64,000 nucleotides of DNA. Origin: Apostichopus japonicus. Taxonomy: Eukaryota > Echinodermata > Holothuroidea > Aspidochirotida > Stichopodidae. Below are positions 1 through 57,676 of this stretch, piece after piece. Within the stretch, counting starts at the first letter, position 1. Each line of letters starts with the position of its first letter. The translations under genes and the position numbers were made by a program. The stretch is taken from NCBI RefSeq assembly GCF_037975245.1, contig NC_092564.1, positions 12,238,484 through 12,302,483 on the forward strand, given 5' to 3'. The notes under the pieces were generated by a model, which did not search any database, had not been told where the DNA came from, and worked only from the letters and a program-made list of their open reading frames with translations.

Positions 1-133
1 AACATTCCTAAGACATCAGGTGACCATGTGACGTCAACGTTTGTATACCTCACTCACAACTATACTTTTAGTGTGTAAAGTCGTATACTTGAGCTGCCAA
101 AAACATCAACGATATTACTCCTTTTTCCTCAAA

Positions 134-379
134 ATGTCACAATTCTGTGTTGTTGGAGGTTGCAGTTATACCTCATCCAACAAAGGCATCAGCTTTTTTA
201 GATTTCCGAGTAAAAGAACCGACGTAAAACGCCGCAGACTTTGGATCAATTTTTTGAGATCCACGCGGAAAGATTTTTCAGCACCCGGAGTATCTCATGC
301 CCATGAGTCCACATGCATGACCCTGCTTCTGTGTATGCTGCAAATGTCTCATTCTGTGAAAATTATATACTGTCGATAG
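134..379 (+). pseudogene. THAP-type zinc-finger N-terminal fragment
   Basis: The reading frame from the ATG at 134 begins MSQFCVVGGC, followed by a basic stretch with FFRFPSKR and RRRLWINFLR. This matches the start of a THAP (C2CH) DNA-binding domain: an N-terminal Met, the first Cys pair (C5 and C10), the phenylalanine/proline box FRFP and the conserved Trp. The second half of the domain (Cys-x2-His and the AVPTIF-like box) is not recognisable. After RKDF the frame runs into VSHAHESTC and then unrelated sequence up to a stop at 377-379. It is either a first exon whose donor I cannot place or a decayed THAP gene, possibly transposon-derived since P-element transposases carry this domain. No partner exon was found downstream to about 1 kb. 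The family call rests on the first 45 residues only. Confidence 0.45.
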
Positions 380-4715: not shown

Positions 4716-7700
4716 CTACAATTCAGAGTACAGTCCAGATGTCGGTGCCAGAGTCTTGACCAATGCCTGAACTTCCTTAAACTTTGGGTTCTCCTTGTCA
4801 CCTAGTAGCTGAAAGATGACGGCTTCGCTAGTCGTTACCATGACACCAGACTGTCGGAGATGCTGAGGAAACGGTTAAGCAAAAAATAAATAAATAAATA
4901 AATTTAAAAAAAGGAGGCATACTGTATGTTCAACAGAACAATGACAGTGATTTTCAATTTTGGATATATAGCAAAGACTACTAATTGGCTATAAATTAAC
5001 TAATTATCTTTCCATCATTATCATCTGCAATCCTAGAACAGTTCTTAGAACTCATACAGCATCAGAGACAATCAAATCAATCTTACATGATGCTACTTGT
5101 TTCTAAAACAAGTAGCAAGACATTTTCCAACACACTCTCAGAAGTAACACAGTGCGATATATAAACTGGTATGACACGTTGTGTCATTCTTCTCAAAAGG
5201 CAAAAATAATCCCTTTCCATTTTGATAGGTACACTGCATTCACATTATTATGATGCAAAGTATGAGCAAATTTAAACTTTAAACTAACAACACCTCTTGT
5301 GCTGATGGCTATTCGCATGACTCATCAGATTTAAGGAATCAACTTCAATCAATCCTGATAAGCAGTCAGAAAATGATGGGCTGGAATAACTTATTTATAG
5401 CACAAGTAGTTTATCATAACCTTAGGTATGTACCGTGGCTTGGTTGTGTCGGAATACAAACATTGTAACTCCTTTTTCAATTGCAGCCAACCCCTTCAAC
5501 CATCATACAGCCTCAACTTCCAAATTCTAATATCAATGTTACAATCCATTGATCCAACCAGGAGCCAGCAAAATCCCATTACTTTCTTCATCACCCCTGC
5601 CCTCCTTATAAAATTAGGTTACATTCAATCAACCATATCTCTAGTTAGGGAGAAGATATTGAGAAGGGGTGTTCAACTAGCAAAGCAGAACATTTTTCTT
5701 TTTACTATAAGTTTCAGATTGCTTGTCACCAGAAAATCTCAAGTTCATTTACTGTAAGTCTCAATCAAAAAGAAAATTCCTTAGTAGTACTACTATATCA
5801 AAGCATGTGTTTGCATTATCATTTGCAAATATGGAATGCCAAAAGGCTCAGCTACAATAATGACTTCAAAAGATATGTCCATAATGTTTGCTGATATGAA
5901 GAAAGAAGTGAACATTTTATTGCTGTTGTAACAGATATGTACATGATTTTCGATACACAGTATTAAATTTTGTAGTAGATCTATAAATTTCAGAATATCA
6001 TCAAAATTTGGTGACATTTTGACATACATACAGAATGCATGATATGTGATCAAGTTTCAAAGGATAATTACACGCTGTTCGGTGCATTTACTGATATGCA
6101 TAATGTTCGTTGTGTCATTGTGTACATTTTAAGTCTACAACATTATCATGTACTTTTACATGATCTGAATATCAGTTAAATGTTACATCATGGACATTCA
6201 TCTTTCAGATTATCATCATATAATGGTAAGCCATATTCAGAGTATTATGGTATACCATCACACATACCTCAAAGGCAATCATTCTGTCCATCATGCTACG
6301 AGATGATGTGGCATCAGCTACCACGTGTACGTCCAGACCTCTCTTGACCAGGTCGATGGCGGTCTGCTCCACACAGACGTGGGTCTGAAAACCGACCAAA
6401 AAACATGGATACGATTTGTGAAAAAGTATAGTAGCAAAGAAATTAAGACGTGTGACCCTGCATATAAATGACGGGAGAGTTGATACGTTTCTCCGATTTA
6501 TATTAAAATAGCTGGATTAATCTTGATGAGTAGCTTGATTTTATGGAAAGCACAAAGTAATGACACAAAGGGTCTTTTCACTTTAATTTATTTTCATGTT
6601 TTCTCTTACTGGGTTTGCAAAACCTTGTAAAACACCCAAACCAGGATACTGGCAGGCGATTCAAGGTTGTTGCCAGAAATCAACGTGCAAAAGGTGAAAA
6701 TTACATAAAAACAAATAATAACATTGATAAATGAAAATAAACAAAATAAACAAAAAATATAGGAACTCTGAGTGGTATTGCATGAAGATGGAAATGATAC
6801 AAAATCACTAGATTGTTTAACTTTTGTTCTCATGGAAAAGTAGGATATTACATTCCAAATTAATAAGTTCTTCACTTCCCAAACAATAGCGGGAAATCTG
6901 ATGAAATAGCAAACGTTATGTACAGGAAATGCAGCAAGTTTATTCCAAAAAAAAAATTCAGAACTGATATTTGTGATAAATGAATGCTAACTGGCTTGAT
7001 GGCATCTGGACCAGCTGGTATCAATTGTGGTATAAATACAAATAATGCTCATCATCCGATAATACCCTTGAACAGAAGGTACTCTGTCCATTTGTTGTTA
7101 CCAAAACAAATTCAAAAGCCTTTACAAAATCTGTTGCTTTTTGAAATAAAGCATCGGTTACTGGCCTGGACTCAGTATTTCCCAGCAGACTTACTGTATT
7201 AAGCCTTGCCTACTTTTCCAGATACGAATTAGGGCTGACGAGCCTGACGTCGTTGTCATTTTGGACAGGTTTCCCTACAATCGCATTCTTATGAGGCATT
7301 ACTTCTTTTCCTCAGGAATTAGCTCTTTGGCCAGAATGGGCCTTTTGAGCTTTTGGGTTACGGATTGTCGTGTTTCACTATTGTACATACAGTCCTAGAG
7401 GTTTCTCAGTAGGCATTACATCTACATATATAGTTCTTACAGTACAGTACCTCTACTCCAAACAGGACAACCGTTGTTAGAGTTGGTAGTTTGCTTAGCT
7501 GTTCTTCTACTGCTGGTATCACCATGGAAAACTTTGTCTTGTCAAAGACTCCTTTAGCATGGTCTATATCCAGTTCCTCCACTGTCTTTCCGAGTCCCTT
7601 TGGATACTGAAAAGAATGAATATTAAATAGACTTGAGGGTTTGCAAGTCTGCAGTCTTAAAACTTAGTACAGGTGGTAGGTGGGGGGAGGGGGGGAGAGA

Positions 7701-13321: not shown

Positions 13322-16300
13322 ATGAATTCTACTCTTAAGTTACTGGAAAGTCACTCCGGGCGTGGACGCATCCTGCGCACCGTCCAGTATGGCTCGAAGA
13401 TGGTCGCAGGAACGACCTTTGTGAATGAACAAAGCAGAAACGGTCTGTTGGTTCTAAGCAGTCAGTTGGGTCTGTGTCGTACAATCCTTCGCCTCTTTGA
13501 CGATCTACCAATGTTGTCTTACACCATGAGCTATGGACTCGGGTCACAGGTGTGTAGCACCCGCTTTGTGCTAGCTTATGTTATTACATAATAGTCTTGA
13601 CTGAATTGTTTTTGCAATTGTTATGTATTTAGTCGTGTATAAAATGGTCCAGTTTGTGCCCCCTCCCACACCCTTCATAATGCGAAAGTCTACAGTACGC
13701 TACTGTGCATTATCAGCATGTACCGCTCATGATCAATCTTGATAGCCATAGACACCCTTGACTGCAACTCTTAACTGTACACAATCAATGCTCCTTGTCA
13801 ATGTTTCATTATTATGTGCAGGGAGTATATACCTTTATGGACTACCACTAGGGGCTTTCATATTGCTATGCCAATTTAGTTCACAATTCCAAATTTGCAT
13901 GTACAAAATTAAATTTGTAAGATTGGCTTAATGTCTTTCTTAATTGAAAAAGTAATAAATCCAATAACTTTAAAGTAATTCATATGCAAATTTCAGCTAT
14001 GAAGAACAAATTTCCTTAAAATTTTTGCAGGATTTTGTTTCCTCAGTAGAAAGGGAATTAAAACTGGAAATTGTTAATCATATATATTTTTGTTGTTGTA
14101 TGTTTCCCATCTGCAGGAGAAGTCTGTATTTATTCGACTGATAACACTGGTACAGAACTTTACGGATCAACTTTTCTTTCCAATTGAGCATATAGCCTGG
14201 GCATCTGATGCTGGTATTTTGAAGATATCTTCAGCGAGGTGGAACAACTTGTGTGTTTATTGTTGGCTCATTTCTCTTTCTATTACTATAACCAGGTAAG
14301 TACTTCATAAAAGGAATGGAAAAACAGATCAAAGGGCGTATACTCGACGTACATTAATGATCATCTCACTAAACTACACGACTTATCAAATTTAAACATC
14401 CCTTAATTCCCAATAGATGTTTGCTAAGTTAAAAGAGAATTTGATGAACTAAAGACATGAGCAGTAGAAGGTTTCCCTCTTCTGCATGTGAAGGAATCTT
14501 GCACGAAGCATAATTTCCAATCCTAACACTTGGTACTTCCAAGGATGTTGCTACCAGTTCATTATGCTCTGTGTAAAATAAAGGAATGCAATTTCTCTAC
14601 CAAAAACTCCGAGGATACTTTGTCTTGGTTTCATTCTATGCTGAAAAACAAAAAAAGAAATTGATAATTCCAGGGACTAATTAAGTTTCCAAATTTTGCA
14701 TAGTAGTTTTGAAGTCTCTGAACTTCATCTCTTGTTAATTACTATGGTTTCTGTGTACAAGAACTGTTATAGACCTTTGTAAATGTATAGCAATCTGCCC
14801 ATTTTGCATAGCATTTTGCGATGCTATACCCAGGGATGTGCCCAGGATTTACTGAGTGCCGGATATACTGATTGCCGTCCTGGGAGAGGGGTCTAAGGGG
14901 CAGGGGGTGTCACCCTCCCCTTTGAGAAATTTTTCGATTTTGAAGGTGCTCAGATGCCAAATGCTGTCACTTGTGTAGCTTTTTAGGCACATACACAAGT
15001 ACTAGTTTTGCTAACAATTTACATTTTTGAATTTTTTTTTAGTGAAATATATTACGTAGCCTACCTGGTTAAAGTTATTAGTTTGTTTCAAAGAGATTTT
15101 ACAAGGGTCCGATTGAGAGCCGTAAGTAATGTTTCTCGCATGCGTAACTGATGCATTATTAGTCTGTATGATTTTGGCATAGGCTAGGCCCAATTTATGT
15201 TGAATATATTGTTAGGAATGTCGGGATATTAGATGAATATAGTACTGGGCGGGATTCACGATTTTTAAGACAGTGCTGGGCGGTAATTTTTAGTGCTGGG
15301 CGAGGCCGCCCAGCGTGGGCACATCCCTGTACAGTATACTGTATAGATTATTCCATGAATTCACATTCAAACATGTTTCAAATTCATATGGTGAAGATGA
15401 CTAGCCATAAAAGTCACACATCATGAAAGTAGTTTAAAAATCAGTTGTATGAATGTACCATAACTACAAATGGAGTCATCAATGTTATCTGTCAGGGACT
15501 TCATGTATCGGGAGCACTAGACAGAATTTCCACTAATGCCTTGCCACACATTGTTCCGTTATGATATGTTGTTGATGTCCCTTGATACTCTGTGCATTTG
15601 TTTTCACTTTCTCTTGTTTAAACTTAAAAAAAAAAAATTCTGGTAATACATGAGAGCACCCACTGCTCACAATGTTGACGATACTATGTGTCCAGTACTC
15701 TAGTTGTGGTGTATCTGACAATAGTTCCTGCACAGCCTGAGATGAATTCATCATCAATCCAGTAAGTTTGTGTTTAACTCTCATTTGTGTCTGTATTACA
15801 GGGCTTTGTTTCCTCCAAGTTCCAGCTTTCTGGTTGCTTTAAGAGAAAGTCGGAAATTACCAATGTTAAATGGTTGTCAGATTCTGTTTAGTCTCTCTTG
15901 TGACAACTTTCTTTCGAATTGATACTTTTCATTGCAGAAATTTGATTCAATTGACCAAATTGAGGCAAAGGGAAGCTAAGAAAAGGTCTACAGATGCATC
16001 TGGGTAAGTATAATCTACTCTTTGGGTATCTGAACTGTAAAGTAAATTGCAATGCAAAGTTACTCAATAGGATATTAAAGGAGACACAAACCCAATACAT
16101 AATTGTTGGTCCAGTGATAGAGATAACGGTGATTGAACAAGTTCCTTGAAACAGCTGAGAAATACATTTAATTTGGAAAACATCACAGATGTTCTTAATG
16201 TTTTACTGAGTTTACACAGTCTACCCTAAACACAAGGTAGGAAAATGAACTACTGAAATTTTCAGACCTAGCATTTCACAATTTTGTCATGTTATGTAAT

Positions 16301-18964: not shown

Positions 18965-19682
18965 GGTCTCCCCACCTGCATTAAGTCAGATGATTTTTCA
19001 CAAGTGTTTATTAGCCCAATCTTGCGTTTATGCCTGTTTATATATATATTACCGATTAGTTTCAAGTACACAGAATGTTTTCAGCATTTCATCAGTAAAA
19101 TAATTTGTGCAGAGTCACTGTCATGTTTGAGAGGCCTGCCTGAGATGCTTTGACCATGTTCAGTCACATGCAACATTTTCCCCAAATAGCTCCCCTAAAT
19201 TCTACCTCCACAATCCACATCGCCATGCAATCGAGCTAACTCATCATGCAGTTGTGCTAGCCAAACATTGTCGTTATCCGTTTTCTCATTTTCACTGTCC
19301 ATTTCATTAGAATAATCACTCAAGTTATCTTACGAAATGACTCGTGAAAACCTCCCAACAAATTTGTGACATGTTTTTTTTTTATTAAAATCGGTGATTT
19401 TGTAATGTTGTAATTTAACTTTCAGTCCCAAGTTTCTGCTAAAATTTATGATGCAAACCCATGGTACAACCTCAGATGTGTTTGTTAAACACATGGCGAA
19501 CTGGATGTATTCACAAAGGCAATAAATGCTGGAATGATACTCATCATCTTTATTGCAAAATGTAATCTATTTACAAACAAAAAAAAGATAGTAACCTATC
19601 ACACCATAAATAGAAGCTAAAAGTGAATAATGTAAACCTTAAAAGTTAATAAGCACATTGTGAACGATATGTTAGATGTAAG

Positions 19683-20033
19683 CAGTGGCGTAGGAAGGTA
19701 CTTTTTGAGTGGGGGGCTGAAGACTGATGGCCGGCCTCCCCATTGGAAATTTTTTGCATTTCCAGGTTGCCTCAAAAATTTTTTGCAATTTGGTGCAATA
19801 TAGCACACTTCAACACCCACTCCATTTTGTAAATAATTTTGCATTTTCACCTGGCCTTAGATGCAATTTGGTGCTCCAAATGAGATTTTTTTCTCATTTG
19901 GAAATGAAAAAGGGGTTTTCTGACTTGCGAAAGCGGGGGGGGGGGGGCGGAATGATACTTCTGCCCCCCATATTTTTCACTGGGGGGCTGGCATCCCCCA
20001 GCCCCCCCCCCCCCCCCAGTTCCTACGCCCTTG
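19683..20033 (+). mobile_element. hAT-type MITE, copy A (351 bp) with 8-bp TSD
   Basis: The left end is CAGTGGCGTAGGAAGG and the right end CCTACGCCCTTG, an imperfect inverted repeat of the CAGNGGCG kind typical of hAT elements. It is flanked by GATGTAAG (19675-19682) and GATGTTAG (20034-20041), an 8-bp duplication with one difference. The interior is G-rich near both ends and includes an AT-rich hairpin made of two complementary blocks, CAAATGAGATTTTT and TCTCATTTGG. A second copy lies in reverse orientation at 22780-23121. It has no coding capacity, and ORFs across it are spurious. Confidence 0.85.
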
Positions 20034-22779: not shown

Positions 22780-23121
22780 CAAGGGCGGGGGTGGGGGGTG
22801 CCAGCCCCCAGTGAAAAATATGGGGGCGGAAGTATCATTCCGCCCCCCCGCTTCGCAAGTCAGAAAACCCCTTTTTTATTTCCAAATGAGAAAAAAATCT
22901 CATTTGGAGCACCAAATTGCAACTAGGCCAGGTGAAAATGCAAAATTATTTACAAAATGTAGTGGGTGTTGAAGTGTGCTATATTGCACCAAATTGCATC
23001 TGAGGCCACCTGGAAATGCAAAAAATTTCCAAAGGGGAGGGGTCCCCTCCCCTTGACCCCTCCCCCAGGCCGGCCATCAGTTTTCAGCCCCCCCAAAAAA
23101 AAGTACCTTCCTACGCCGCTG
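22780..23121 (-). mobile_element. hAT-type MITE, copy B (342 bp), inverted relative to copy A
   Basis: Reverse-complement homology with 19683-20033 runs over its whole length. It starts CAAGGGCG and ends CCTACGCCGCTG. The flanks are CCCTCCAC (22772-22779) and CCGTCCAC (23122-23129), again an octamer with one difference. It lies inside the larger hAT-like element close to its right end, so it inserted after that element. ORFs across it are spurious. Confidence 0.85.
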
Positions 23122-23359
23122 CCGTCCACCCATTTTCAAGGGGGATATATCCCCCACCCCCCCCAGGATCGCCGCCCATGCATGTGGCATGTACTTAATG
23201 CTGATACAAAGATACTCCCTCGTTAACTTGTTGGAAACTTTTAGAAAAATATGCGCCCAAGATTCTGGAATGAAACACTCAACATTTAGACGTAATCACC
23301 TGATGCTTGCAAAGTAAACAAACTGAAGCGAACAAAGACTATTACAGGAGAAGAAAACA

Positions 23360-24787: not shown

Positions 24788-27700
24788 AGGAAAGTTTCTC
24801 AATCGATTCCATCTCTCGTGATTTGCATCAACCTTTGACTAACTCTGAAATTATGAATGAAGCAGAGGCAGTTCGCATTTGTCCTCTGTCAGAATTTGTC
24901 ACGAGTCTGCCAGATGCCTTCACATGTCAACTCCAACCCTCTGAGCCACGGCTGAGGGCCTCTATTTCTCCTGCCGAACCAGATGATATAATAGTATGCA
25001 TTGAAAGCAATATGCTACAAGCTCACAGATTGGTCTTTCCTGAAAATAGGGGAAGGTAAGTCATGATTGGTTTTATCATCGTCTTTTAATCTCTGTTTTC
25101 CGTATGCTTCAAGTTTAAAAGGAAAAATGTTTCTAGTGCTAAAGAGAAAGCAGTTCACATTTCAGATGAGAGAGATGGTTAGGTTGTTCTGCCACTGTAT
25201 GCAAGAATGTCTGTTTTTATGTCCAAAAACTTAATAATTGAAGTTCTTTGAATGATCAGTGGTTTCCTCTGTTGTTGCTATTGCTTCAATAAATACGAAA
25301 GTTAACAGTCTTGATGATGAAATATTTCGTTATAATTTCCTCATAGATGTTAACTTCATATGTTAATGTGCTATAGCAACCATTAGTTATAACATATATG
25401 TTTGATGTAAAATTTTCTGCATCCAAAGTGGTGCTGTTAGCTGTGTGTAATCCTAACCAGTTTAAAGCCAAAATAAAATAAAACTGTTAGCAAACTGCTT
25501 ATCCACTAGAGAGCCTGTGTAGAGCCTGTGTAGGAGAATATATCAGTTTAAACCCAGTTATGCTATTCCTCTATATGAAAGTAGTTTATTGCACATCTAC
25601 AGTAGGCTAGTAAAACACTTGGTCTTGTCTTTTTTATTCGTAAAAGTTGCACATCAGATGATCATGGAAATTCTCTTTGTGTCAGCATAATATCAGTGAT
25701 GTTGATTTACCCGACAATCCTTGTTTACTTATTATTCTAATAAATTATAAATTAAATGCTTGGGTAGAACAACATGAGCAGAATACCAAATACATAATGA
25801 AGACTTCATATAATGGCATCACAAGCTTTTAAAATTTTTGTAACTTTCCTTAAATCAACTTTCTATATTTCCAACAGAATTTTGATGTCGAGAACAGTTA
25901 ATCAGATGAATGGTCTAGCATATCAGCTCATTTCAAGACCTTTGTTGATGGTTGTGAGAGTCATGTATCGTGCCCAAAGGAATTCCAAGTGGTATCTTCA
26001 AGTGGGTGAGTTTAGCACAATATTTACAGATGTTGACTTAGTGAATAGTCATGCTGTGAAACTTCGTCTAAAATCCAACCAACTACACCTAATCTGAACA
26101 GTTACACCCAAACAGAACAGTTACACCTCATCAGAACAGTTACACCCCTTCCTAACAGTTGCACCCCATAAGAACAGTGACACCCCTTCAGAAAAGTTAC
26201 ATCCCATCAGAACAGTTACGCCCCATCAGAATAGTTATACCCCATCAGAACAGTTACACCCCTTCAGAACAATTACACCCCATCAGAACAGTTACACCCC
26301 ATCAGAACAGTGACACCCCTTCAGAACAGTTACGCCCCATCAGAAAAGTTATACCCCATCAGAACAGTTACGCTCCATCAAAACAGTTACGCCCCATCAG
26401 AACAGTTACTCCCATTCAGAACAGTTACGCCCCATCAGAACAGTTACACCTCGTCGGAACAATTGCACCTGATCAGAATGATTACACCTCATCTGAACAA
26501 TTCACACCCCGTCAGCACAATTACAACCCATTACGTCAGTTACACCCCATCTGAGGAATGACATCCCTTCAGACCACCCAGTGAATAAGTTATCTGGTAT
26601 CACAATACAAACTACCATGCAAGTTGGGCAAATTCTTATACAAGTGCAAACATGTGTAACAGTTTTTGTACACAGGAGCCATAGTAGATCAATTTCCTAG
26701 CCTTTCAAAACTTCAGAATGCAAAACCTGAACACTAAATGATTCTCTGGAAGGAAATTACATTTCTTCAGGACAATTACACCCCATCTGAACAAATCAGT
26801 ACTCATCTGATCATGACAGTTTTTAATAGCAAAATAAGAAAGGTGCATCAAACCTTTTATAATTTGTGTTCTCAATTGGAGAATATTCTGCTACTTACAC
26901 ATTTGTTTTCATGTGAAATGTCTTGTCACGTAATTGAAGGAAATCTCTAGTGATTTTTTGTCTCTCTCTCTCTCTCATCAAGCTACATCCTGCTAGTATC
27001 CTTTTTTGCAAAGTCATCTATTTATCAAATCATTTTTGAAATATTGTGAATTCATCTGGCAAAAGTACAGAGAGGATCATGACACTTCTAAACTAGACCT
27101 GGAGATCCTGTATAAAGTGTACATGACGTCTGACAGGTTCCGGCTTGGCAAATGCTTTCCTTCCCTTCACGATTGTTGGAAACCGGCCTAAAATTTAACA
27201 ATTTTTAACCACTTGCTGAAAAATGCCGGTACATGAAAAAAAGCTTTTAGCTAAACTCAAATTCACACTCGCAGTTGAACATTAATTTGCACTGGCAGAA
27301 AAAAATGCCAATGCATTCTTTGACTACTGGCAAATGGTAAAAATCCACTGGCTTTTAAATAACGTGAATTTTGAGGCTGTGTATTTGTTTTTTGTTTTTT
27401 TTGTTCCCATGTGGTTTGAAAGGATGCATACACAATAAGAGTGTTCTTTACTTTTTGGCCTCCTTTTGACAGTAAACTACATTTAAAAGTGGTGAGAGTG
27501 TAACAGTGAATGTACTGTATGGATTGATGCAGGATTCATGCAGCAGGGATGTTAAGACTTTACCATATATACCTCCTGCATATAATATAGTCTTCATCAC
27601 CACCAGGTATTTATCAAACTGCAACACATTTGCCATCTTACATGCTCCCATTTCATTCCATTTTTCTAGGTCATGGATGCTTCTTGTCAGTGGTGCGATC

Positions 27701-30700
27701 TCTCACTAACATCCCCTACCATGAAAGTAATATCTCTTAAAACAAAGACGGTAAGCTTGATGATCAGTCTGCAGTTTCTCATTTATACCAGCATTGTTCA
27801 CCTCTTCATGTCATTAGTAAGGGGATGGTGATGCCAATCTTTCTTACAGAATTCAATGAGGGTTTACAAATTTGCATTTTTCTTTCCCTTTCATTTTTTT
27901 TTGCTTGTTTGTTGTTTTTCCATTTGCTTTTTGTGCTGTTCTCACACAAACACAAGACAGAGTACTACAAGCCTTTTATCTTGGACCATTCTAGACCTTC
28001 TAATTTTATCATTAATCATCATGTAAATGATTTCTACAATTTTTACTACCGAGGAAGTAATAAACGTTTTTTATTTCAACCTTTTTGTCTTGTTTTTGTT
28101 TTATGTTTCTTTAATTATCTTCTTTGTTTAGTATTTGCTTATACATGATTAAACATGTCATTAATATTTATTGTATACAGGAGCCAAACCAGAAAAGCTA
28201 TGTTTATTTTTGGTTCTCTCTACCATACAGATACTGTATTGCTTTATTTCAATTTCTTTATGATGTTACTTTCACACTATATGTTATTGTATTGTATGTA
28301 TATTGTGTTTTTGAATTGTTAGAAATAAATGAAATCAAATAATTACCCGTTTATCAAGAATCTTCATTAAGTGAACAATTTTCGAGTTCATAAGTGTTGA
28401 AGAATGAACGTATCAGTTTTATTGTCGCAATTTAATTGAAACGCCATTCTATTACTGGCCTTTTACCTCTGCAGCATATCTTACGGTTCTGATTAACACC
28501 AAACATCCATCCATTCAGTCACAGTTGGAGGATGGGCTAAAGAGAGGTTTGAGGTCCATCACTAATGGTAGACAGTTTGCTGTAGAGGTGAGAATATGGG
28601 CTGGCATATCATGCTTCAAAGCACTCATATTGACAGTATGAACAGTTCCTAACCTTTATATGATAGAAACATGATACTCATACTGTCACTATGAGTGCTT
28701 TTGCAGAGTTCCGAGAAAGATCGGTTTTTAAAACAGTGTCCCAACTTGGTGGTTTTACTTTGAAACAAATCACTATCTTTAACTTATTTTGGTGTTTTAT
28801 AAGACAATGTTGATAGAATGTCTTTTGCACGCATGTTGAGGAAAGCATAACAAAAGGCCTTAAATGGATTTTCTGGTGGATGAAGTTACTTGCTTTGCAA
28901 ACTAGCTAAAAGTTTCTTTGTATCTGTAGGTCAATAATCACACCCTCATAGTATTTTGCATAGCAAGAATATTTATTTTCTAATTTTGATGGTATTTCAT
29001 CATTGTATCTGGCAACAGCAGAATGAATGATGTCACCAGGGCATTTCAGCTGAAAATGTCTTTGTGTTTTTGTTATAATATTTCAGTCATTTATTCACAT
29101 AGGAAAATGAAACATTTTTTCCAAAAGTTGCATTTTGTCGAAATTCTCACATACAGAGAATGTTGAGAGAAAGTAATCATTCCAAATGGTATCAATTTTC
29201 AAAGATAAATCAACAAGAACATTATAAATCAACTAGAACATTATAACAGGTAAGTAAAGCTTTTGAAGAACAACTGCTGTGATGACGTCACAGGTTAAGC
29301 CAGTCAAAATACGTTACATTCAATCAACCATATTTTCATGTTGGGAACAAGATTTTGAGATGGGTAACTGTAGTCTGGGATATTTTGCTTTTCAATGCAT
29401 GCTTGACATTGACTGTCAATGGGAGATCCCTTTTGAATCCTTAAAACAAAGATGGTCTAACCTTTTGTTTTGTTTTTACTTGTATTCCTCTGTTTCCATA
29501 GTTGAACTTTAACGCCATGATTGCTTCTTGGTTGAAGACAGTCCTTTGCAGGGAGCATGTACTATGGACCACATCTCACAGTTGTGAGTTCTTCTTACGA
29601 TGTGAAGGAGCTAGTTTGGTCATCACAAACTGCAGCGAATACAACAGTTTGTTTGATGTCAGGGCACCCGACTGTTGCTGCATATGGATGTTTTGCCTGC
29701 CCTGCTGCTTGATAACGTGTCCAGCATATACTGTAAGTTCTATTCAAACTTCAGAATTCTTTTAAAGAATTCTGTTTTCAAAGAATTCATTTGGCATGTT
29801 GACGGGCCTGTAATTAAGAACTGTGGTCAGCCTGGGTTTACATTAAATGATACTTTTTGCATGTTGTTTTTTTTAACTTAGTTATTAATTTTTAGAGAGG
29901 AGGGGGGGGGGGAGGGGGAGTTAAGATGAAATTTCCAGTCAGATAATGATGTGTTTTGCTTCATTTTATTGTTTTGACGTCGCAGGTACCATTTGTGTTA
30001 ATAAAATAACAATGAATGACGTGTACTCACATGGATCCAAATTGTTGAAAAATCAAGTCTAGAGAAAGTTCATGCTGTGACATCACAAATTAACGTTTGG
30101 TGCAAAGCCTTGTTTACTTCCAAGAACGAAACAAGTAGTCTCAAAAGCGTCATATTGTACCACATGTAATGATTACACTGTGTTTTTGTGATAAGGTAAC
30201 TTTGGAGATAACTAGGAACTGGACCTTAATTATCATTAGCCAATCAGATCCCTTCTTGTTCATGGAGTAAATCAGTGAGTTATCATCTTGGGTTTGTCTC
30301 TCAGTATTGTGTGTTTGTTTGGAATAATTTGTATCTTGTACGTCACATCCAGTAACCCAATGAACAATTGTCATTTGGAATATGTAAGGTCAATTCAAAC
30401 GGTGAAAACTGAAAATTGCTTCCTGATGAATATAACATACAGTATTTCCACCATGCTCTGGTTGAACCCAGTGATTTCCAGTTATAGATGTTATTGCATT
30501 AAAATGTCACCAACGTGATTCTTTCAACCTTCATAACAACAAAATATGAGATTTTGCCAGGACTATATCACCGCCATCTTGGTTTATTAGTATATAGAGT
30601 TATCCTGCACGCCTATCAATGCCCTTAACAACAAAATAAAGACATTGCCAGGACTATATTACCGCCATCTTGGTTTATTAGTATATAGAGTTATCCTGCA

Positions 30701-33700
30701 CGCCTATCAATGCCCTTAATATTAAAATAAAGTCTTTGCCAGGACTATATCACCGCCATCTTGGTATATTAGTATATAGAGTTATTCTTCACGCCTATCA
30801 ATATCCTTAACAACAAAATAAAGACTTTGACAGGACTATAGCACCACCATCTTGGTTTATTAGTTTATAGAGTAATCCTTCACGCTTATCAATGCCTGTT
30901 TGTGATCTTCTCTATATTTTCATTTCCAGGTGACCAGACGGATCACAGTTGATGACCACACAGTCAATATCAAAGCCGAGTCGAGCTATTGGGATCTTCA
31001 GAACCATGAAACTGCAGAGGAGGCGGTGATTCATCTGAGAGAGATCTTGTGTGGAGAAAATGTGGACTGGAACCAGGTCTATGAAGTATTATGGAGAAGA
31101 TGTACTGAAGGTACGACAGAAATAAAACAACTGTCATCTCGATAGTTAAGTTAAGTTTAGCTTAGATTAGTTTAGCTTCGCTTAGCTTAGTTTAGTTTAG
31201 TTAGTTAAGCTAAGCCTAGCTTAACTTACAGTAGCTTTCTCAAATTCGGAGGGAGTAAAAAAAGTAACCCATTCATCATCACTACAGTGCAAGAAGTCAC
31301 TTTGAAAACTCCATTATCCAAGTTTTCAAACTGGAAATATCATATCCCCTACAAATACTCCATTCAAAAACTGCATAGCAACGATATTTGAATCAGTCAA
31401 GAGAATCTGATACTTGATGTGGTTTTAAACTGGGTGCATAGAGGTTGTGGGGCAGACATTCCTACCACGTTAACTTAATATTTAAAGAGAATGGCAGAGA
31501 ATGCTTCACAAACCTATCGTAAGGTGGATTACTTGGAGTGACTGACGCTGAAGTCCTTCGTTTTTTGTTAATTTCTATCTCAGGTGTCATGTGACTGCTT
31601 CAAAGACTATAAATCAAATTCAATGGTGTTCACAACAGTGGTCTATCCCAAAGTAATTTATAAAAAGTCAAGCAAGAAAAACAAAAGAAGTGTTCTTGGA
31701 TATTCATATTTTATTCAAATTTTATTAAGAAAAGTGAATTCTGTTGACATATTTATAGACACATCGACTTTCAATTTATGAATGACCAAAAGTTTTCATT
31801 GGTTGCTAGTTTGTAGTGATTTTTACCAAACGGTTTGTTCCAGAAAAAGATGTATAATTGGAGTTGAACAGTAGTCTTTGTAGCTTTTGCTACTAACGAG
31901 ACTGAGCTAATTAACTGGTACCGTTGGTCGATGGATTCTCTATTGTGTTTGCTGCACCTGTGTTTATCGCACATAAACCAAAACAGGATACGAAATACCT
32001 GTCCAAGAACTTATACAGTTAGTCCGTGGACCCTTTCAGATATTCTTGGCAAAGGGCCAATTATGATAATTATTAATCGCCTGCAGACCAAAATCTTGTA
32101 CAAGAGCACTACTAGAACTTAGTTGATTGGATCACATGAAGCTAAAAGTAGGTGCTTTGTGATAAGAGTATGGCAAGGTACACTTTGCATATGCAAGGTG
32201 CAGAAAGCATTTCAAGTCCAGCGATTATATCATGTAGGATTCACATCATGAAGCCGGCACTGCGTAGAATAACTTGCCAAAAATCCAGCATTTTGGTATA
32301 TGTATGAGACTCGCCAGGGTGGTGATTATTGTAGATTTTAATGGTATGCAGCTTTGTTGGGATTTCTGTTTATATCAATACCAAAAGTTGATTTGAATGT
32401 CATTATTTTCTCGCCTTCCCCTCCCTCCCCCCCCCCCCTCATGATACATGGAGACAACCTGAATATTATAGCTTTGCTGTGAACTGAATTAACTCCTTTA
32501 ATGTTGCTAAATTTGATATTACATTTTACAATACAAAACAAAGTAACTTCAGATCAACAACTGACATTTAAGTACCTTAACTTGGCCACCTGAGAATGTA
32601 TGCCATGTCAAAAAGGTAATGGGTTTCTGTTGAAGAAAATAATTCACTACAGGATGGAAGATTAGAGAAGGGAAAAATATGACTGTTATGTTTTTTATCT
32701 TGACCTAGGCCTGCAGGTACAAATAATGAAGCAAATGAGGGGGAGGGGGCTAAAATAGCTAGCAGGTAGCTACAAATTTGAGGTTCCTAGGGGGGAAAGT
32801 ATGTTATATATAAGTTAGAATAATTCTGATGAAAACAACCATAACATGTGGTAAATAAGAGAAGAGATTATTTCATTTAAATGGAATGAAAATAAGTCAT
32901 CTGCCTTTTCCTGTGGAGAGGACCCTTTGAAATGTTTTTGTTTTGAAATAATATGTAATATGCAAAGAGTTTGTTTCAAATATTGTTTCAATAGGTGATC
33001 CTTGTATAACAATTTGACATATAATGGCCCTGAGCTGTTAATGAAGAGACACATGGCCTCTGTGCTTTACCTATCCTAGGGTCCTGCACACTCTCACGAC
33101 CATAATGTCAACTTTTGTTTTGGTATCAAAAAATTCTCTGGAACAATAGAATCAGTGGATGTCCAAAAGGAAGAAAACAAAACTTTGAGGGGGGTGGGGT
33201 GGGGGTGGTGGCGGGGAGGGGAGGGGGATTTGAATAAAGAGACTACTTTCTACTAGGGCAGTTATTAGATCCCAACATAGCAAATGGACAATAGGCAGGA
33301 CAATATTTTCTGATCTATTAGTTCCTGTATAATTTAATATTTCCATTTTATTATGGGAAGTTTTAAGTGTAGCAGCCTCTGGATTGGATACAAAATTTCT
33401 CTGGATATTGCAATATCAATCCTGTGTCAATTTCTCCTGTAAGCTTCATACTGTACCACTCTATGACTGACAAACTGTTCACGTCACACTTGTTAAGATT
33501 TTCCCTTCAACATAACTATTAAAAATGTTTGTTGCTTCAATTTTCAAGAGTTGTGAGTTTTTCTCTGTTGTAAATTTCTCTTTCCTTTTGCCATTTAATG
33601 AATGAAGCCTAGTGTCTGTGATGTTTACACAAGCTATAGTTGGTCAGAGTACTGTCAGGCATTGTTAATTTTTGTAAAGGAAAGGGCAGTCCAAATGTTT

Positions 33701-42335: not shown

Positions 42336-42918
42336 ACGTGGCGACTACGGAAATGCCTTATGTATAAAAAATGTTAAAACCAATATAAGCATGTCCACAA
42401 TAAATATAAGCATGTCCAAATTCGTATAAACATGTCAAAATTAACATAGGTATATCCGAAAAATAATATGAGCATGTCCAAAATAATATAAGAGTGTCGA
42501 AAGATTATATGAGCGTGTCCAAAATATAAAAAAAGAGTGTCGAAATCTAATACAAGAGGGTCGAATGTAACTGCCTATTCTATTTTGTATAGTGAACATT
42601 TTGGCGTTTAAGTTACACTATATATTGCAAAATATCCAAATAATATAAGCATGTCCAAATTAACATGAGCATGTCCAAATTTTTATAAACATGTGAAGCT
42701 AATACGAACACGTCCAAACATATATAAGTATGTCCCAAAATAATACGAATATGTTCAAAATAATATAAGAGTGTCGAAAAATAATAGAAAAGTCTCGAGT
42801 GTAACTGCGCACTTCAACTTTGTGCAGTGAACATTGAGGTTTTTGAGGTCACGCTATGTGGTCCAAATATCGAACTTTTTATATTGGTATGTCGAAACAA
42901 ATTCAGCTTATCAATACC
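42336..42918 (+). repeat. left arm of the foldback-like element
   Basis: Two arrays (about 42380-42560 and 42640-42795) of roughly 20-bp units end in the same GTAACTGC block, so the arm is itself a two-copy higher-order repeat of about 240-280 bp. Confidence 0.7.
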
Positions 42919-43394
42919 TTCTTTGGAGTTACTCTGTATCAACTGACACTATGGTTATCATTGTGACATTATAATATTGCACCATTATTCTGTTTTTGTG
43001 AAGCAAATAATTCAGAATATGTAAATACAATACCATCACCTAATATATTTATTTCTTACATCCGTTCTTAATGTGAGTGGTTTCGCTCTGCCTATATATT
43101 GATGCGTAGGCAAAGAAGTTTACGTACGAAAGTACAACATGCACATTCGCTAACAACTTTCTAACTAGTACATAGTTATCACACATGCGTACGCTGACAG
43201 TGAAAATCAACTACCATTTTTTTAACGGAGAATTGTGACACTTAATTACGGTTACCAGGCTTGTTAAAGTAACATATTAGCCTTCTAGTTTTGTCTTTAT
43301 AATTTATGTCCCTTAATATTCGAAGTATACTAAGGTAGATTAAATAATAAGATGGAGTATTTGGGGGAAATATTTGCCGCTCTACCCAATTTAG

Positions 43395-43935
43395 TTGACG
43401 AAGTTGAGAGGGTTATCCGAGATTGGAATGGGTCTGACGTGGTACTTTTACGGATTGAATATGCTACACCATCCTTACTCTAGAACTAGTCTTAACCATT
43501 CTCAAATTCGTAGCACAGGTGTACCCTTCTGGAATTCTCTTAATCATGTCATTAAAATTTCTCCAACACTCAATACTTTTAAGCAAAAACTAAAACAATA
43601 CCTACTGCATAGCAATCCATCTTAGTTGTACTTCCTGTTTTTTTCTCTTATGCTTCTTTCTTTCTCTTTTCATAAGATTTTGACTTTGTTGGTTTTTGGG
43701 GGGAGGGGGGGGTGGTGGGGTGGGTGATGTACTTTGCACTTTCTTTGTTACAAAGGGACCAGACCAGAAAAGTATCCACTTATTTCTGGTTCCTCTACTT
43801 CCATCTCACATATATATATTATTTCAATACTCTATATTTACTGTTTACTGTATTTGATACCATCTATATTTATTCTATACTGTTCAAAATGTAAAATAAT
43901 GGAATGTAGAAAATAAATTCAATTCAATTCGATTG
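43395..43935 (+). pseudogene. non-LTR retrotransposon C-terminus and 3' tail
   Basis: The frame ends YSRTSLNHSQIRSTGVPFWN, then LNHVIKISPTLNTFKQKLKQYLL and a stop at 43623-43625. This is the widely conserved C-terminal end of LINE reverse transcriptases (R......IR..G...WNSLP..I....SL..FK..LK..LL). An untranslated tail follows, with a CCAGAAAAG...TTTCTGG hairpin and a terminal AATAAATTCAATTCAATTC repeat of the CR1/L2 kind. The copy is 5'-truncated and lies in the spacer of the foldback-like element. Confidence 0.7.
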
Positions 43936-44082
43936 CACCTTGGGGCCGGGCGACCACTCGCGCTACGAAACAACTCAACTAATATTACCTCGAAAATAAA
44001 ATCATTTCTCCACCAAAATATCATTAAAATATAAACACATACATTAAGACGGTAATGGATGAATTGTTCATCACCTTACGTT

Positions 44083-44690
44083 TTGCTTGATATGCTGAAT
44101 TTGTTTTCGGCACACCAAAATAAACTTTTGATATTTGGAACAAGGCGCGTAACTTTAAACGCCTTAATGTTCATTACAAAGTTGAAGTTAGCAGTTACGC
44201 TCGAGACTTTTGTATTAGTTTTCGACACTCTTATTATTTTGGACATTCTCGTATAATTTTTCGACACTATTATATTAATTTGACATGCTTAAACTATTTA
44301 TGGACATACTTATGTTAGTTTCGACATGTTTACAAAAATTGGACATGCTCCTTTTATTTTAAACATGCTTATATTATTTTGGACATTTGGCAACAAATGG
44401 CGTGAATTCAAACGCCAAACTGTTACTACAAACATGAAGTCAGCAGTTACATTCGACATGTTCATATAATTTTTCCATACTCTCATGATATTTTGGACAT
44501 GCTCATATCACTTTTGGACATTAGTTTCGACATGTTTATATAAATTTGGACCCACCTATATTAGTTTGGACATGATTATATTGTGTAAAAGTAAGTAGGC
44601 CTAACGTTTCGATCCTAGCAGGATCTTCATTATATTGTGTTGGACTTTTTTGATATAGGCCTACTGTAATGACATTCCGTAGACGACCAC
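44083..44690 (-). repeat. right arm of the foldback-like element
   Basis: Units read TTTGGACATGCTTATATTA on the plus strand, the complement of the left-arm units. Two GCAGTTAC blocks (near 44189 and 44450) separate the arrays. A 43-bp retroelement end interrupts the arm at 44586. Confidence 0.7.
44586..44628 (-). mobile_element. 43-bp Penelope-type 3' end insertion with 11-bp TSD
   Basis: On the minus strand it starts GAAGATCCTGCTAGGATC, continues GAAACGTTAGGCC and ends TTACTTTTA, the same 3' end as the copies at 2.5 and 57.6 kb. It is flanked by identical ATTATATTGTG at 44575-44585 and 44629-44639. It is therefore a very short 5'-truncated insertion in which only the hairpin and the terminal bases were copied. 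Confidence 0.8.
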
Positions 44691-47224: not shown

Positions 47225-49160
<1,936 letters not shown>

Positions 49161-49170
49161 GATGACTCAT

Positions 49171-49540
49171 AGCAGCAACACTTCTTATAACATGATCAAA
49201 CATTCACATAACATGATCAAACATTCACATAACATGATCAAACATTCACATTACATGATCAAACATTCACATAACATGATTAAACATTCACATAACATGA
49301 TCAAACATTCACATTACATGATCAAACATTCACATAACATGATCAAACATTCACATAACATGATCAAACATTCACATAACATGATCAAACATTCACGTTA
49401 CATGATCAAACATTCACATAACATGATTAAACATTCACATAACATGATCAAACATTCACATTACATGATCAAACATTCACATAACATGATCAAACATTCA
49501 CATAACATGATCAAATATTCACATAACATGATCAAACAAG
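49171..49540 (+). repeat. 21-bp tandem repeat, about 17 units
   Basis: The unit AACATGATCAAACATTCACAT repeats in phase with codons and would read (N/Y)MIKHSH. Units beginning TACATG alternate with those beginning AACATG every third or fourth position, showing a higher-order pattern of 63-84 bp. The surrounding ORF of 156 codons has no other protein-like features, so coding is unlikely. Confidence 0.9.
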
Positions 49541-55699: not shown

Positions 55700-57215
55700 G
55701 TGTTTATCAAATTGCCTCTCGTTATTGTTTGTCACAGTGTCTCTCATTATTATTTGTCACATTGTCTCTCTCATTATTGATTGTCACATTGTCTCTCATT
55801 ATTGCTAGTCGCATTGTCTCTCACTATTGATTGTCACAGTGTCTCTCATTATTTGCGTGTCACGGTGTCTATCTCTCAATATTGATTGTCTTTCATTGCG
55901 TGCTTGTCACAGTGTCTCTCATTATTGCTTGTCACAGTGTCTCTCATTATTATTTGTCACACATGTCTCTCATTATTGCTTGTCACATTGTCTCTCATTG
56001 TGTGCTTGTCACATTGTCTCTCAGTATTGCTTGTCACATTGTCTCTCATTATTAGCTTGTCACATTGTCTCTCATTATTATTTGTCACAGTGTCTCTCAT
56101 TATTGATTGTCACATTGTCTTTCATTACTGCTTGTCGCATTGTCTCTCACTATTGATTGTCACAGTGTCTCTCAGTATTTGCGTGTCACGGTGTCTATCT
56201 CTCAATATTGATTGTCTTTCATTGCGTGCTTGTCACAGTGTCTCTCATTATTGCTTGTCACAGTGTCTCTCATTATTATTTGTCACACATGTCTCTCATT
56301 ATTGCTTGTCACATTGTCTCTCATTGTGTGCTTGTCACATTGTCTCTCAGTATTGCTTGTCACATTGTCTCTCATTATTAGCTTGTCACATTGTCTCTCA
56401 TTATTATTTGTCACAGTGTCTCTCGTTATTGATTGTCACATTGTCTTTCATTACTGCTTGTCGCATTGTCTCTCACTTTTGATTGTCACAGTGTCTCTCA
56501 GTATTTGCGTGTCACGGTGTCTATCTCTCATTATTGATTGTCTTTCATTGCGTGCTTGTCATATTGTCTCTCTGCAGTATTGATTGTCACATTGTCTCTT
56601 AATGTCGCTTGTCACAATGTCTCTCATTATTGCTTGTCACATTGTCTTTCATTGTGTGCTTGTCACAGTGTCTCTCATTATTGCTTGTCACAGTGTCTCT
56701 CATTATTATTTGTCACACATGTCTCTCATTATTAGCTTGTCACATTGTCTCTCATTATTATTTGTCACAGTGTCTCTCAGTATTGATTGTCACATTGTCT
56801 TTCATTACTGCTTGTCGCATTGTCTCTCACTATTGATTGTCACAGTGTCTCTCAGTATTTGCGTGTCACGGTGTCTATCTCTCATTATTAATTGTCTTTC
56901 ATTGCGTGCTTGTAACATTATCTCTCTGCAGTATTGATTTGTCACATTGTCTCTCAATGTCGCTTGTCACAGTGTCCATCAGTATTGCTTGTCACATTGC
57001 CTCTCATTATTGTTTGTCACAGTGTCTCTCATTATTGATTGTCGCATTGTCAGTATTGCTTGTCACATTGCCTCTCATTATTGCTTGTCACAGTGTCTCT
57101 CATTATTATTTGTCACACATGTCTCTCATTATTAGCTTGTCACATTGTCTCTCATTATTTGCTTGTCACATTGTCTCTAATTATTGCTTGTCACATTGTT
57201 TCTCATTGATATCTC
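55700..57215 (+). repeat. 25-bp minisatellite organised in a 326-bp higher-order repeat
   Basis: About 60 units of a roughly 25-bp motif (TGTCACAGTGTCTCTCATTA plus a variable five bases). Variant units recur in the same order at 326-bp steps: the block GATTGTCTTTCATTGCGTGC is at about 55882, 56208 and 56534. That is 13 basic units per higher-order unit. The long Cys/Ser/Leu-rich frames across it are by-products. Confidence 0.93.
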
Positions 57216-57579
57216 TAATTAATTGCTTGTTTATTCATGGTAATGCAATAATAATACCGTAGCTGATTAATGAGATATTTTGGTGACAGATAATGTGGCA
57301 CTTATATGGCAAAGAAAAATATTTCACCCTTTCAGTTTAAAACACCATCTCAACATCTTTTCTCTAACTCAAGATATGGTTGATTAAGTTCAAGTTACTT
57401 TAAAATGCTAAACCCTCGATTCTTTCCTGGAAGTGGATGACAGGTGATAATTTGATGCCACAAACGGCAAATATTCCTCAAAAGGTTCCCTCTACTATAT
57501 AGTATTCTTCTTGTTAATTTATATTCAAAACGGATACATTTGGAATGTTGCTTGACTGTCAAAAAAAAAAGGGTCATCT

Positions 57580-57676
57580 GTGCGTGTTTTTGTCCCTTCT
57601 GTTACTGTACTTGTCATTTAGCCTTTGAAGAAGATCCTGCTAGGATCGAAACGTCAGGCCCTCTTACTTTTACACA
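57580..57676 (+). mobile_element. Penelope-like 3' end fragment with hammerhead-like fold
   Basis: It matches the minus strand of 2472-2576. The ordered elements are stem I GCCT (57621-57624), TTGAAGA (57625-57631, where the consensus first base is C), stem II GATCC/GGATC (57633-57637 and 57643-57647), GAAA (57648-57651), CGTC (57652-57655) and stem I AGGC (57656-57659), which pairs perfectly with GCCT. This is a minimal type I hammerhead layout with a near-absent stem III and one extra A before stem II. Activity is unlikely in this copy because the invariant C is T. Confidence 0.6.

Follow-up and report, generated by a model that had tools for sequence, protein, structure and literature searches.

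Echinoderms harbour foldback elements, the TU elements of sea urchins, which carry repeats in their arms and to which we liken the element reported here by description only. The sea urchin is named among foldback hosts in the cited passages on Tetris (PMC4079207), and foldback architecture is mostly tied there to Mutator transposons, with P elements as an exception (PMC4079207, PMC3688188). Mutator elements produce target duplications of 8-10 bp (PMC5225508). Among them, Tetris of Drosophila virilis is a non-autonomous element whose long arms contain ~220-bp internal tandem repeats that vary in number and are able to expand, and whose duplications measure 8-10 bp (PMC4079207). Tm1, also a Mutator element, has long repeat-bearing arms and a 9-bp duplication. 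Muta1, which is active, and its relatives in Aedes aegypti are Mutator elements in which a terminal motif is followed by several 12-bp tandem units per end; their ends span 145 bp, they make 8-9 bp duplications, and the cited passages do not mention higher-order blocks (PMC5225508). Galileo belongs to the P superfamily and has long, internally repetitive arms (PMC3688188, PMC3573991). The THAP domain of its P-type transposase binds sites in the arms; one such site was footprinted, and others were identified within the repeats (PMC3688188).

Duplications of 6 bp point to other superfamilies. IS3EU elements at large have TA..TA ends and usually 6-bp duplications (PMC10045372), and the fungal families are described with termini TAYGG..CCRTA, terminal repeats longer than 30 bp and 6-bp duplications (PMC12730594). 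In the cited passages, hAT6 (PMC12730594) and Polinton (PMC10045372) also duplicate 6 bp. Dada duplicates 6-7 bp, lacks terminal inverted repeats and inserts in small RNA genes. Elsewhere in the literature, the passages found note a likeness to IS3EU for two oyster satellites and one Tribolium repeat, and liken another Tribolium repeat, with 735-bp inverted arms, to other transposons. We found no description of foldback arms on IS3EU among the papers listed in searches of the open-licence PubMed Central literature. Repbase held 45 IS3EU families by 2022 (PMC10045372), among which a described relative of the present family may exist.

Here we analyse a foldback-like element in a stretch of 64,000 nucleotides of the Apostichopus japonicus genome (the window). 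We consider it very probable that positions 42346-44681 are an old, non-autonomous copy of an IS3EU-type DNA transposon family with foldback-like arms. The family resembles IS3EU in its termini (TACGG..CCGTA against TAYGG..CCRTA) and in its 6-bp duplications, and may do so in the integrase-like DDE core of a related copy (L062), but differs from it in having long, two-level satellite arms. Judged from sequence and from the cited passages, the closest foldback architecture is that of Tetris, from which the family differs in its 6-bp duplications and in blocks that are themselves made of ~20-bp units. The 6-bp duplications also set it apart from Tm1 and Muta1. In contrast to Galileo, the gene linked to the arms is of an integrase-like kind, and neither the four pieces of L062 nor the loop pieces of the window copy gave a THAP domain. 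By its termini and duplications, this foldback-like element stands outside the Mutator and P kinds of the cited papers and fits IS3EU.

Results

Architecture and ends of the window copy

The window copy spans 2336 bp, later insertions included, with ends taken from other copies. Its features are the following, in positions of the window.

42346..44681, unstranded: whole element, TACGG..CCGTA, delimited by comparison with other copies
42340..42345, unstranded: left target duplication GGCGAC, 5/6 identical with the right one
44682..44687, unstranded: right target duplication GACGAC, 5/6 identical with the left one
42346..42916, + strand: left arm, made of the terminus, then two blocks of ~20-bp units and closing segments
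44088..44681, - strand: right arm, with the build of the left arm inverted
42563..42636, + strand: closing segment of the left outer block, GTAACTGC at 42567
42797..42871, + strand: closing segment of the left inner block, GTAACTGC at 42801
44130..44202, - strand: closing segment of the right inner block, GCAGTTAC at 44191, outer limits from segment lengths
44382..44454, - strand: closing segment of the right outer block, GCAGTTAC at 44443, outer limits from segment lengths
42917..44087, unstranded: inter-arm loop, most of which, outside the LINE-like insert, aligns to a young copy
43352..43457, + strand: remnant of the first coding exon of a transposase gene (MEYLGEIFAALPNLVDEVERVIRDW..), from tblastn with the L062 exon and DNA alignment
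43458..43930, + strand: later insertion, presumed LINE-like retrotransposon 3' end with ATTC tail, duplication GATTG
43453-43457 and 43931-43935: GATTG duplication around the LINE-like insert
44587..44629, - strand: later 43-bp insertion, 11-bp duplication TTATATTGTGT at 44576-44586 and 44630-44640

The first-pass annotation had proposed inverted arms of about 600 bp, built as a two-level tandem repeat. Both proposals hold. The arms measure ~570 bp (left) and ~595 bp (right) and, aligned over their full length, agree at 429 of 514 columns (83%, nested 43-bp insert excluded); their local alignment scores 336, whereas 200 dinucleotide shuffles average 25 and never exceed 39. Each arm is divided into two blocks (235-283 bp for the four as cut, against ~250 bp in the original description), and every block consists of an array of ~20-bp units followed by a closing segment of 73-75 bp that carries GTAACTGC. 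A single strand is predicted to be able to fold back, left arm on right arm: the modelled fold contains 423 arm-to-arm pairs and reaches -374.0, against -218.4 to -247.5 for eight control stretches. Among 107 of the ~20-bp units, picked by similarity to a seed, the best conserved part is a TGTC core, a conservation that is partly built in because the units were chosen by their likeness to the seed.

That the element is a bounded unit was also correct, since similarity stops at its ends: the outer 200-bp flanks show no continued similarity, their score being reached by 1473 of 1811 random pairs. The outer boundary, in contrast, had been placed 8-9 bp too far out. The motifs proposed as ends, GTGGCGAC and GACGACCAC, lie outside the element and include the 6-bp duplication (GGCGAC on the left, GACGAC on the right); the outer motif is the terminus TACGG plus flank, and the GTGG motif is flank. 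A test for a target duplication at these proposed ends found none (4/8, P about 0.14), because the ends were misplaced. Comparison with other copies sets the true ends at 42346 and 44681, where the flanking hexamers are 5/6 identical. By itself, the match between the two termini is only moderately unusual (26 of 1824 random pairs were equally good), and the arms contain no convincing recurrence of the terminal 30 bp (eight comparisons, lowest control fraction 0.02). No empty site for the window copy was found among the loci compared.

Searches for known families gave little. Rfam returned no match at gathering scores in the window and, in the element, nothing but sub-gathering matches, and Pfam returned only sub-cut-off matches in the loop pieces (DUF3943 and DUF6856). 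DNA-pattern scans revealed no relative in viral contigs, where ten loci share stretches of at most 41 bases, nor in further genome contigs, which gave one 17-base match.

A dispersed family with shared ends and recent spread

The first-pass annotation had suggested mobility, to be judged by copies with the same ends in different flanks, and such copies exist in number. The left arm has at least 43 matches in the genome, its own copy included (40 of 253 candidates scored). The left terminal 25-mer was matched 56 times across 20 contigs, in 50 cases exactly, and the right one 108 times, with at least 47 exact among the matches listed; reversed patterns of these 25-mers, used as a control, gave 0 matches. 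Both ends are present in 46 of the 49 other loci first read, as TACGG..CCGTA or nearly so. A few copies of the family carry base changes there: L014 ends in CTGTA and L071 in CGGTA. An exact 6-bp target duplication flanks 42 of the 46 two-ended copies (25/27 plus 17/19), a count that leaves aside L035, L041 and L061, whose right end was not found in their stretches. The others have 7 bp (L022) or 5/6 identity (L031, L047 and L049). Six size variants were also read, of which four have exact 6-bp duplications, one has 8 bp and one 5/6. When the two flanks were joined for each of the 46 copies and for the window copy, five of these 47 sequences had a related empty site among the loci in the set. 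For L040, the 60 bp shown are identical in L057 and L059; the matches for L013 and L030 are looser. The description as a foldback-like, bounded and mobile element was thus right.

Within the first set, 24 copies are 98.4-99.9% identical (the window copy, L013, L014 and L015 being set aside), which indicates a recent spread. Identity between the window copy and the five others compared with it is 81-83%. Hence, this is a dispersed family with common ends, 6-bp target duplications and recent spread. Insertions were also seen inside L043, L050 and L059, for which open frames were listed.

A probable transposase gene linked to the arms

Most of the copies that we read lack a transposase gene. We searched the genome with the Pfam integrase-core family rva_4 (PF24764, chosen as a guess and then tested). 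This gave at least 143 matches (150 of 224 candidates scored), whereas 14 control genomes had none. By a rough estimate, many of the 143 lie on one contig (C17) at about 15-27 Mb, and these are mostly broken. One match lies ~5 kb inside L062, a copy with the exact left terminus whose left arm is 88% identical to a young copy and 80% to the window copy. Past this arm, L062 has in order, on one strand, an exon beginning MEFLGERFAALPNLVDEVERVIRDW, a helix-turn-helix piece (match just under the cut-off), a middle piece and the DDE-core piece. The core matches rva_4 at 6.1e-74 and, among PDB entries, has only weak integrase matches (E 0.82 to 0.97). No right end was found within 11 kb. A second copy with the same left arm, L061, carries an exon of the L062 type at 75% identity, with no core within 6.8 kb. 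The exon and the core were hence seen together in a single locus, L062.

The rva_4 locus L064 matches the last three pieces of L062 in the same order, which supports these pieces as parts of one gene; no arm match was found in its 9.6 kb. By eye, L062 has a His at the position of the first catalytic Asp of L064. Three rva_4 loci were compared with the arms, and L062 is the only one that can be tied to them. We take rva_4 to represent the IS3EU transposase family on the basis of termini and duplications rather than of a tree.

The two copies L062 and L061 thus continue past the shared left arm into a coding exon of which the window copy retains a part: tblastn with the L062 exon gave 69.8% identity over 43 aa at 43352-43465. 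This remnant is absent from the young copies, the middle of which aligns to L062 up to element position ~950. Since the exon is partly kept, the window copy is best read as a deletion derivative, and probably a non-autonomous one. None of the copies found combines both ends with an intact transposase.

Turnover of units and blocks

In 40 of 44 full-length copies, the length of the right outer array is 195, 215, 235 or 255 bp to within 1 bp, and the steps correspond to one ~20-bp unit. The four that fall off these steps are L013 (198 bp), the window copy (231 bp, the 43-bp insert being part of it), as well as L014 and L015, in which the motif was not found. Blocks vary as well. Five copies (L067 and L070-L073) on one contig (C12, 32.14-33.90 Mb) are most simply read as one insertion copied by segmental duplication, because both 100-bp flanks are common to them at 93-99% identity. 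Their lengths range from 576 to 2136 bp, and their intact closing motifs per arm are 1+1 (L067), 2+3 (L070), 1+2 (L071) and 2+1 (L072 and L073), counts that miss decayed blocks. As these counts differ among duplicates of one insertion, block number changes in place. The arms thus gain and lose whole ~20-bp units and 200-250-bp blocks, most likely by unequal exchange or slippage. Exact 6-bp duplications flank short elements that have the family termini (319, 356 and 576 bp), and L068 (933 bp) has an 8-bp one. The two shortest copies read keep 5 and 2, and 6 and 4, TGTC units at their ends.

Divergence between arms

The two arms of the window copy have diverged by ~17%. Within each of the copies that are nearly identical to one another, left and right arm share just 80-83% identity. 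A tree of 20 arms, from 10 of 28 copies, separates left from right arms on one branch (support 97/94), with the right arm of the window copy near this split on a long branch. The arms therefore separated once, before the spread of the 10 treed copies, and today form a left type and a distinct right type. Because copies that are 98-99% identical carry equally diverged arms, arm divergence gives no date for the window copy; by this comparison, we read it as inherited as a diverged pair and not as a measure of age.

Later insertions and other repeats of the window

The insert at 43458-43930, which we take to be LINE-like, is absent from a young copy and from L062, and the Pfam search on loop pieces gave it no family match. 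Read from these alignments, it and the 43-bp insert entered the window copy after the latter had inserted. The 43-bp insert resembles DNA at 2473-2519 and 57630-57676. It is a piece (44587-44629) of a dispersed repeat with 101-bp copies at 2473-2573 and 57577-57676, which are 93% alike, and the core of which presumably resembles that of a hammerhead ribozyme. Rfam found no hammerhead ribozyme in the window. Small hammerhead retroelements occur in animals, as stated in the cited passages (PMC7229834).

Other observations concern the rest of the window. A second inverted pair, at 19682-20009 and 22783-23122 (82% over 357 columns, separated by 2.8 kb, and joined by a partial copy at 14867-14957 as its third member), is probably a different dispersed repeat. 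A higher-order minisatellite occupies 55707-57207, with ~25- and 51-bp units inside a 326-bp repeat that is present in 4.5 copies. Simpler tandem arrays lie at 26084-26551 (19 bp × 24.6), 30534-30896 (91 bp × 4.0), 47225-47454 (ATG × 76.7) and 49187-49538 (21 bp × 16.8). The palindrome TAGGCCTA occurs nine times, against 0.7 expected from base composition. Two open reading frames encode domains above the Pfam cut-off: a THAP domain at 32-376 (+ strand, E 1.3e-6) and an isochorismatase domain at 6208-6516 (- strand, E 2.6e-12). A Galileo-like reading starting from the THAP frame was rejected, the frame being 42 kb away from the element.

Discussion

Could the structure be a local inverted duplication of satellite DNA that never moved? 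Within the 64-kb window the arms occur at the element only, and the ends first proposed show no target duplication, as this would predict. Yet the many dispersed copies, with common termini, different flanks, 6-bp duplications and related empty sites, refute this explanation, which keeps almost no credence. A foldback element of the Mutator type, as are Tetris and Tm1, would account for the architecture of long arms with internal tandem repeats. We regard it as highly unlikely, since one then expects duplications of 8-10 bp and finds exactly 6 bp in 42 of 46 copies, and since the gene tied to the arms belongs to the integrase-core type. The length of the duplications would suit another superfamily, be it Dada (6-7 bp), hAT6 (6 bp) or Polinton (6 bp), but the terminal five bases agree with IS3EU and the core piece resembles an integrase, which makes this class of explanations improbable. 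Dada, in addition, is without terminal inverted repeats, whereas the inverted arms here measure ~570-595 bp, and it is found in small RNA genes. Target duplications differ between copies here, and Rfam gave no match at gathering scores in the window. Polinton has an integrase-type enzyme too and would be set apart only by its size and termini.

The role of the arms is less clear-cut than the class of the element. On an IS3EU-type element with passive arms, the transposase would recognise short ends and the arrays would be slipping hitch-hikers. The 319- and 356-bp copies, which have few units and still show exact 6-bp duplications, speak for this, as do the free variation of unit and block number and, in young copies, the 17-20% of columns at which a copy's two arms differ. 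Against it, several TGTC units are kept at each end of the two shortest copies, arms are present in both exon-carrying copies, and the arm repeats of Galileo bind its transposase. Passive arms are a possibility to be taken seriously, albeit a rather doubtful one.

On our main reading, a transposase supplied by L062-like relatives probably acts in trans on the ends, cuts at TACGG/CCGTA and joins the ends to the target with a 6-bp stagger. The ~20-bp units with their TGTC core would be repeated binding sites that help the transposase to recognise and pair the ends. By analogy, they are probably transposase-binding sites, a proposal for which Galileo arms give a precedent; active Muta1, too, has tandem units in its ends. 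A bolder reading, which we put forward tentatively, is that foldback arms arose on an IS3EU-type transposon without any link to those of Mutator and P elements, each end becoming a two-level array of binding units that would act as an adjustable docking platform. In the same tentative reading, the left and right arms each evolve as a type of their own and are not homogenised, and the family would also be a source of dispersed satellites, since block number changes in place at a fixed insertion.

It is important to highlight that how far the two arms of a foldback element have diverged is not necessarily a guide to when it inserted. The family also offers natural experiments, i.e. near-identical copies that are one 20-bp unit apart and five duplicates that differ by whole blocks. 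If foldback arms do sit on IS3EU ends, then arms made of repeated sites arise on unrelated transposases.
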